Assembly (NCBI GenBank): GCA_003281415.1
Contig: QCCC01000004.1
Location: forward strand, 1 to 64,000
Source of the DNA: Prochlorococcus sp. AG-347-K15
GTDB taxonomy: Bacteria; Cyanobacteriota; Cyanobacteriia; PCC-6307; Cyanobiaceae
DNA length: 64,000 nt
Reading direction: 5' to 3'
Part shown: positions 13,225 to 41,528 of the stretch, one piece after another
Layout of the letters: each line of letters begins with the position of its first letter
How positions within the stretch are numbered: position 1 is the stretch's first letter
Program-made: the position numbers and the translations under genes
Notes under the pieces: model-generated
What the model was told of the DNA's origin: nothing
Database searches by the model: none
The model's input: only the letters and a program-made list of their open reading frames with translations

Positions 13225-13354
13225 TAACAGAAGAATTTAACGACATATAATCTAACGAATTAAATTACTAATTTGTAATGAGGAACTAATTATTTTGGAA
13301 GAAAGCATATATGTTTTTATATTCAGGATTTAATATGTATTTCTAATAATCCCC

Positions 13355-13450
13355 AAAAAAAAAGATCCCTCAGAGAGAGATCTTTTTAAAATTGATTTAA
13401 ATCAAGTGTTTCCTTGTTTCCACTGAAATAAATCAATTCCTCCTACACAC
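13355..13450 (-). ncRNA. Yfr2-family small RNA
   Basis: On the minus strand a 10-bp stem (AATTGATTTA with its complement, 13429-13438 and 13390-13399) encloses an AGTG/CACT inner stem and the loop GAAACAAGGAAA, the repeated GGAAACA element typical of cyanobacterial Yfr2-type RNAs. A terminator follows (AAAGATC ... GATCTTT, 13361-13385) with a run of Ts. The 5' end is uncertain; a TATTAA element suggests transcription starts near 13445-13450. Yfr2-type RNAs are abundant regulators in Prochlorococcus. Recognition is by motif and structure only. Confidence 0.72.
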
Positions 13451-13521: not shown

Positions 13522-13632
13522 AAAAATACAAAAAGTACTCAAACATCGAGGTCGAGTACTTTTAAAGTTATCAGAAAAAAGTGTGTGAGGAGTTTCTGAT
13601 GTTTTTAATCTACTCCGTAGGTAATTTAAAAG
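13522..13632 (-). ncRNA. small RNA with Yfr1-type core in a hairpin loop
   Basis: On the minus strand a TATACT element (13638-13643) would start a transcript near 13630. It contains an 8-bp hairpin (13593-13600 with 13570-13577) whose loop displays ACTCCTCACACAC, the invariant core of Yfr1. It ends in a perfect 10-bp terminator stem (AAAAGTACTC / GAGTACTTTT, 13531-13540 with 13554-13563) followed by a T-rich tail. The true Yfr1 gene lies at 41472-41528, so this is a second molecule with the same core. It is unrelated in its flanking sequence. Confidence 0.6.
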
Positions 13633-13684
13633 GCTACAGTATAAATTACTAAATATTTAAATCTTTCAGAAAAATTGGTCGTTG

Positions 13685-14082: not shown

Positions 14083-14331
14083 ATGAATTTTATTTTTTCT
14101 TTTTTATTAGCATCTGTAATGTGGGTACAAGTTCCACAATGGGAAGCTGACTGGTCAAAATGTGCTGTAGATGTTCCCGACTCATCATGTCACTGGTACG
14201 TAGCTGCTCCCGATAATACTTTTGGGGAAGGATTTAATTGGGAAAACGCTCCTTGGTTTGATGCTAATGGATTACAGGATGTAGCTAAGATTGAGAAAGA
14301 ATCTGTAGTAGAAAAACTTCAAAATAACTAA
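14083..14331 (+). CDS. small secreted Trp-rich hypothetical protein
   Basis: The 82-residue product has a hydrophobic start (about 2-12) that may be a short signal peptide. The following part is rich in Trp and acidic residues (WVQVPQWEADWSKCAVDV), and two cysteines nine residues apart could form a disulfide. No family recognised, though the composition and ordered motifs make it a convincing gene. Confidence 0.6.
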   Translation: MNFIFSFLLASVMWVQVPQWEADWSKCAVDVPDSSCHWYVAAPDNTFGEGFNWENAPWFDANGLQDVAKIEKESVVEKLQNN

Positions 14332-41471: not shown

Positions 41472-41528
41472 AAAAAAAGCCCGATTAATCGGGCGATTTA
41501 GTGTGTGAGGAGTATGGGGTTTCCCCCA
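41472..41528 (-). ncRNA. yfr1: Yfr1 small RNA
   Basis: Read on the minus strand: hairpin GGGGGAAACCCC, then single-stranded ATACTCCTCACACACTAAAT, then terminator CGCCCGATTAATCGGGC and a T-run. This is the Yfr1 structure, with the ACTCCTCACAC core that is invariant among cyanobacteria, and the guaB-trxA position is its known site. Yfr1 pairs with target mRNAs, including outer-membrane protein mRNAs. Confidence 0.93.

Follow-up and report, generated by a model that had tools for sequence, protein, structure and literature searches.

Two predicted small RNAs lie in tandem on the minus strand of Prochlorococcus sp. AG-347-K15, in the 64,000-nt stretch of contig QCCC01000004.1 analysed here (the window). 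Upstream and divergent from them is the gene for an 82-aa protein (14083-14331, plus strand), and a DUF1499 gene (13224-12841, minus strand) follows downstream of both. A metal ABC transporter gene also lies on the upstream side, as in strain MED4. The first of the two RNAs, an orthologue of MED4 Yfr18 by the comparisons below and a member of the Yfr10 family, is likely about 100 nt at full length; its predicted ends (13525..13631, minus strand) are inferred from the positions of a probable -10 promoter element, TATACT (13638..13643), and an intrinsic terminator (13530..13563). Between these, an 8-bp hairpin (13570..13600) forms from eight perfect pairs between ATCAGAAA (13600-13593) and TTTCTGAT (13577-13570) and displays a Yfr1-type core, ACTCCTCACACAC (13581..13593), which by analogy would be the motif that binds targets and Yfr2. 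In the predicted fold, 12 of the 13 core bases lie in the loop with an unpaired probability of at least 0.98 each, while the first A closes the stem (unpaired probability 0.25). The terminator stem, AAAAGTACTC/GAGTACTTTT, is perfect over 10 bp and runs into a T-rich tail. All of these parts had been proposed in a first-pass annotation made from the letters alone, and each is confirmed in the sequence. The promoter and terminator of this RNA both went unlisted in a simple scan for such elements, an outcome attributed to the rules of the scan.

Directly downstream, and overlooked in the first-pass annotation, is a Yfr2-family RNA (Cyano-1, RF01701; 13385..13452, minus strand; 80.4 bits), the MED4 Yfr5 orthologue and the sole RF01701 match in this 75%-complete genome. 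Its loop carries GGAAACAAGGAAACA, and a terminator (GATCTCTCTCTGAGGGATCTTTTTTTTT, 13343..13383, minus strand), recognised from sequence and fold, is conserved. At its 5' end stands a near-complement of the core, the anti-core GTGTGTAGGAG, identical in all 38 loci with the same neighbours. The core/anti-core duplex is worth -16.9 kcal/mol for the Yfr18 orthologue and equally for Yfr1, a value that 40 of 2000 shuffled cores reach. Cofolding with the Yfr2-family RNA gains -11.8 kcal/mol for the Yfr18 orthologue, -16.0 for Yfr1 and -4.5 for a core mutant. When the Yfr2-family RNA is folded by itself, terminator included, the anti-core is predicted to be mostly paired, which cautions against a picture of two open stretches simply pairing.

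Between the two RNAs, a conserved TGTGACA-TTAA segment (about 13516-13500, minus strand) occurs at equivalent spots in related loci and recurs between other Yfr10/Yfr2 pairs. It may serve the Yfr2-family RNA as a promoter or as a site for a regulator. For some yfr2 copies, a GntR regulator that binds a CGRE1 motif has been published (PMC6778093).

The Rfam Yfr10 model, RF02362, matches positions 13600-13519 (minus strand) over its full length (1-78) with 61.1 bits (E 6e-7), above its gathering score of 43, and the element has the family layout: a 5' hairpin with a Yfr1 core in its loop, then a terminator hairpin. Assignment to the Yfr1 family was rejected: RF01116 has no match at this locus, and the core sits in a hairpin loop. 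A Yfr1-type location, between guaB and trxA, was likewise set aside, as the flanks here are the 82-aa protein and DUF1499 genes. Yfr1 itself, which shares the core and had been placed at 41472-41528 in the earlier annotation, is recovered by RF01116 at 41529-41476 (minus strand), directly upstream of a gene whose translation is a thioredoxin.

Position and neighbours link the element to MED4. One sampled genome (G015) has RF02362 matches at 346661-346738, 383217-383296 and 972321-972241 and three exact motif copies, as reported for MED4; the published positions are 346661..346738 for Yfr10, 383230..383312 for Yfr12 and complement(972284..972388) for Yfr18 (PMC2518516). On these grounds G015 was taken as MED4 or a near-identical assembly. 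Its core at 972314-972304 falls within the published yfr18 interval, and the window locus aligns with this 972-kb locus. Both share the order OsmC-like, DUF1499, Yfr2-family RNA, Yfr10-family RNA, 82-aa protein, ABC-3 permease and Fur, and the two 82-aa proteins are 90% identical. The Yfr10-family RNA thus keeps its place, with yfr5 on one side and the divergent upstream gene on the other. Since position and neighbours match, the minus-strand element is, on this comparison of sequences, the orthologue of MED4 yfr18, with the yfr5 orthologue downstream.

Yfr18 of MED4 is documented by Northern and 5'RACE evidence, with species of 29 and 76 nt, and its signal fell under the microarray threshold (PMC2518516). 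By analogy, expression of the orthologue may therefore be low or processed. In MED4, the conserved -10-like box (about 972364-972359) is located downstream of the published 5' coordinate, 972388, which leaves the transcript ends uncertain. A literature search on Yfr18 by name found nothing beyond Steglich et al. 2008 (PMC2518516).

Of 200 genomes sampled from the genus, 167 have an RF02362 match; among the 66 with a completeness of 90% or more, the figure is 64. Thirty-eight loci with the same neighbours, the window included, were compared; since an RF02362 match was the basis for picking them, they give no measure of the frequency with which the RNA has disappeared. The same 13-nt core occurs in 37 of them, and the remaining one has T as its last base. 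The hairpin stem is essentially invariant, the -10 element is (nearly) so, and the terminator stem is preserved, in contrast to a variable terminator loop and variable spacers. The terminator stem, with 92.5% of cells paired, has four pairs changed on both sides when the Yfr10/Yfr12 paralogues are included, and the consensus structure, again with Yfr10- and Yfr12-type paralogues, scores above every slid version. The display hairpin is paired in 100% of cells across 29 distinct sequences and offers no informative changes; because it hardly varies, covariation neither supports nor contradicts it. Ten genomes that lack an RF02362 match and three with weaker matches were searched for loss at the syntenic site. 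With one exception, any 82-aa protein found in these 13 genomes was a more distant homologue (68-73%) that had no adjoining RNA of this kind; the exception, G004, has a 96% copy of the protein and keeps the core, the hairpin and the Yfr2 neighbour at the site.

Taken together, sequence, structure, synteny, conservation and complementarity make it almost certain that the element is a functional Yfr10-family sRNA, the MED4 Yfr18 orthologue, whose core would bind mRNAs and the adjoining Yfr2-family RNA. The MED4 literature shows that Yfr10 and Yfr18 are expressed, that Yfr10 binds Yfr2-family RNAs and which targets Yfr10 has; the same behaviour in AG-347-K15 is inferred by analogy. The RNA would be driven by its own promoter and ended by its own terminator, and the 8-bp hairpin would display the core CUCCUCACACAC single-stranded for pairing with mRNAs that in many cases are targeted by Yfr1 as well. 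The adjoining Yfr5 orthologue would bind the core through its near-complement GUGUGUAGGAG, and the two neighbours would titrate each other. Complementary sites with at most two mismatches were not commoner across the genome than for a reversed control, so no targets are proposed.

The RNA might instead serve mainly as a sponge or stabiliser of the neighbouring Yfr2-family RNA, the pair perhaps being cut from one precursor, rather than as a regulator of mRNAs. The tandem arrangement in every examined Yfr10-family locus with a recognisable core, except one (L029), fits this idea, as do the 270-nt precursor common to MED4 Yfr10 and Yfr2 (PMC2518516) and the shielding of Yfr2 from RNase E by bound Yfr10 (PMC6778093). 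It is nonetheless unlikely: 253 mRNAs are enriched in a Yfr10 pull-down, footprinting reveals that Yfr10 binds ppa in a core-dependent manner (PMC6778093), and the Yfr18 and Yfr5 orthologues each have a separate terminator here.

That the element is a relic, a non-functional RNA whose core is retained through descent alone, is very unlikely. Decayed copies do exist elsewhere in the genus: at five loci outside the yfr18 site (L041, L070, L076, L079, L084), the Yfr10-like core or hairpin is damaged and the downstream Yfr2-family RNA intact, and two further loci outside it (L071, L081) have at least two core changes. At the yfr18 site, 38 genomes preserve the core, the hairpin, the terminator and the -10 element amid variable spacer bases, a conservation pattern that largely refutes this reading. 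It is about an even call whether yfr18-yfr5 is the one vertically inherited, selected copy of the Yfr10/Yfr2 module in high-light Prochlorococcus, a module whose halves are under unequal selection; copies located elsewhere would then have lost the Yfr10-like half with the Yfr2-like half intact. The available parts of Steglich et al. 2008 and Lambrecht et al. 2019 contain no statement on decay of Yfr10-like copies. Decayed cores in some copies elsewhere, with the yfr18 locus intact, are a small addition to the known picture.

A motif arising by chance in an AT-rich spacer that resembles a hairpin would sit well with a fold energy just modestly below shuffles (z -1.9), yet the probability of this is negligible: the Rfam match and conservation across 38 loci rule it out, with the 11-mer ACTCCTCACAC present twice in the window (in the Yfr18 orthologue and in Yfr1, 41503-41513) against 0.00 copies expected in shuffles, and twice in the 1.17-Mb genome assembly against none for the reversed control. 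The case rests on conservation and the family match, fold energy alone being unremarkable.

The element belongs to an already described family (RF02362), and the earlier proposal is essentially the published view. Yfr10, Yfr12 and Yfr18 share the Yfr1 motif, each adjoins a Yfr2-family RNA (Yfr2, Yfr4 and Yfr5), and pairing between motif RNAs and these neighbours was considered probable (Steglich et al. 2008, PMC2518516); the picture drawn in the first-pass annotation, another RNA that displays the Yfr1 core in a hairpin loop amid flanks foreign to Yfr1, agrees with this family, which shares the motif with Yfr1 but differs in structure and locus. MED4 Yfr10 has targets that overlap with, yet are distinct from, those of Yfr1, increases in darkness, binds Yfr2 and is titrated by it (Lambrecht et al. 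2019, PMC6778093). The idea of a paralogue that shares targets or acts under other conditions accordingly agrees with the published targets and response to darkness; as to kinship with Yfr1, just the 13-nt motif is common to both RNAs. The locus adds one more sequence to the known Yfr1/Yfr10/Yfr2 circuit through which an abundant phototroph adjusts its carbon and nitrogen metabolism, and the main use of the locus is annotation of the Yfr18 and Yfr5 orthologues in the AG-347-K15 genome.

Among known systems, MED4 Yfr18 is alike in neighbourhood, core, hairpin, terminator stem (AAGTACTCGA.../...TTTGAGTACTT) and the adjoining Yfr2-family RNA, Yfr5. It differs in the terminator loop, some spacer bases, a TAATAC in place of TATACT, and a greater distance from Yfr5 to the DUF1499 gene. 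Yfr10 (RF02362; MED4 346661..346738) shares the ATCAGAAA hairpin, the core and the tandem order with a Yfr2-family RNA, but lies at another locus (genomic island 1 in MED4) and has the terminator stem CACCCT/AGGGTG (PMC6778093). MED4 Yfr12 has the same hairpin and adjoins Yfr4, but its core is altered to ACTCCTCATATAC. Yfr1 (RF01116) has the same 13-nt core and is otherwise dissimilar: its core stands between two stem-loops, whereas here it is held in a hairpin loop, and its locus adjoins trxA.
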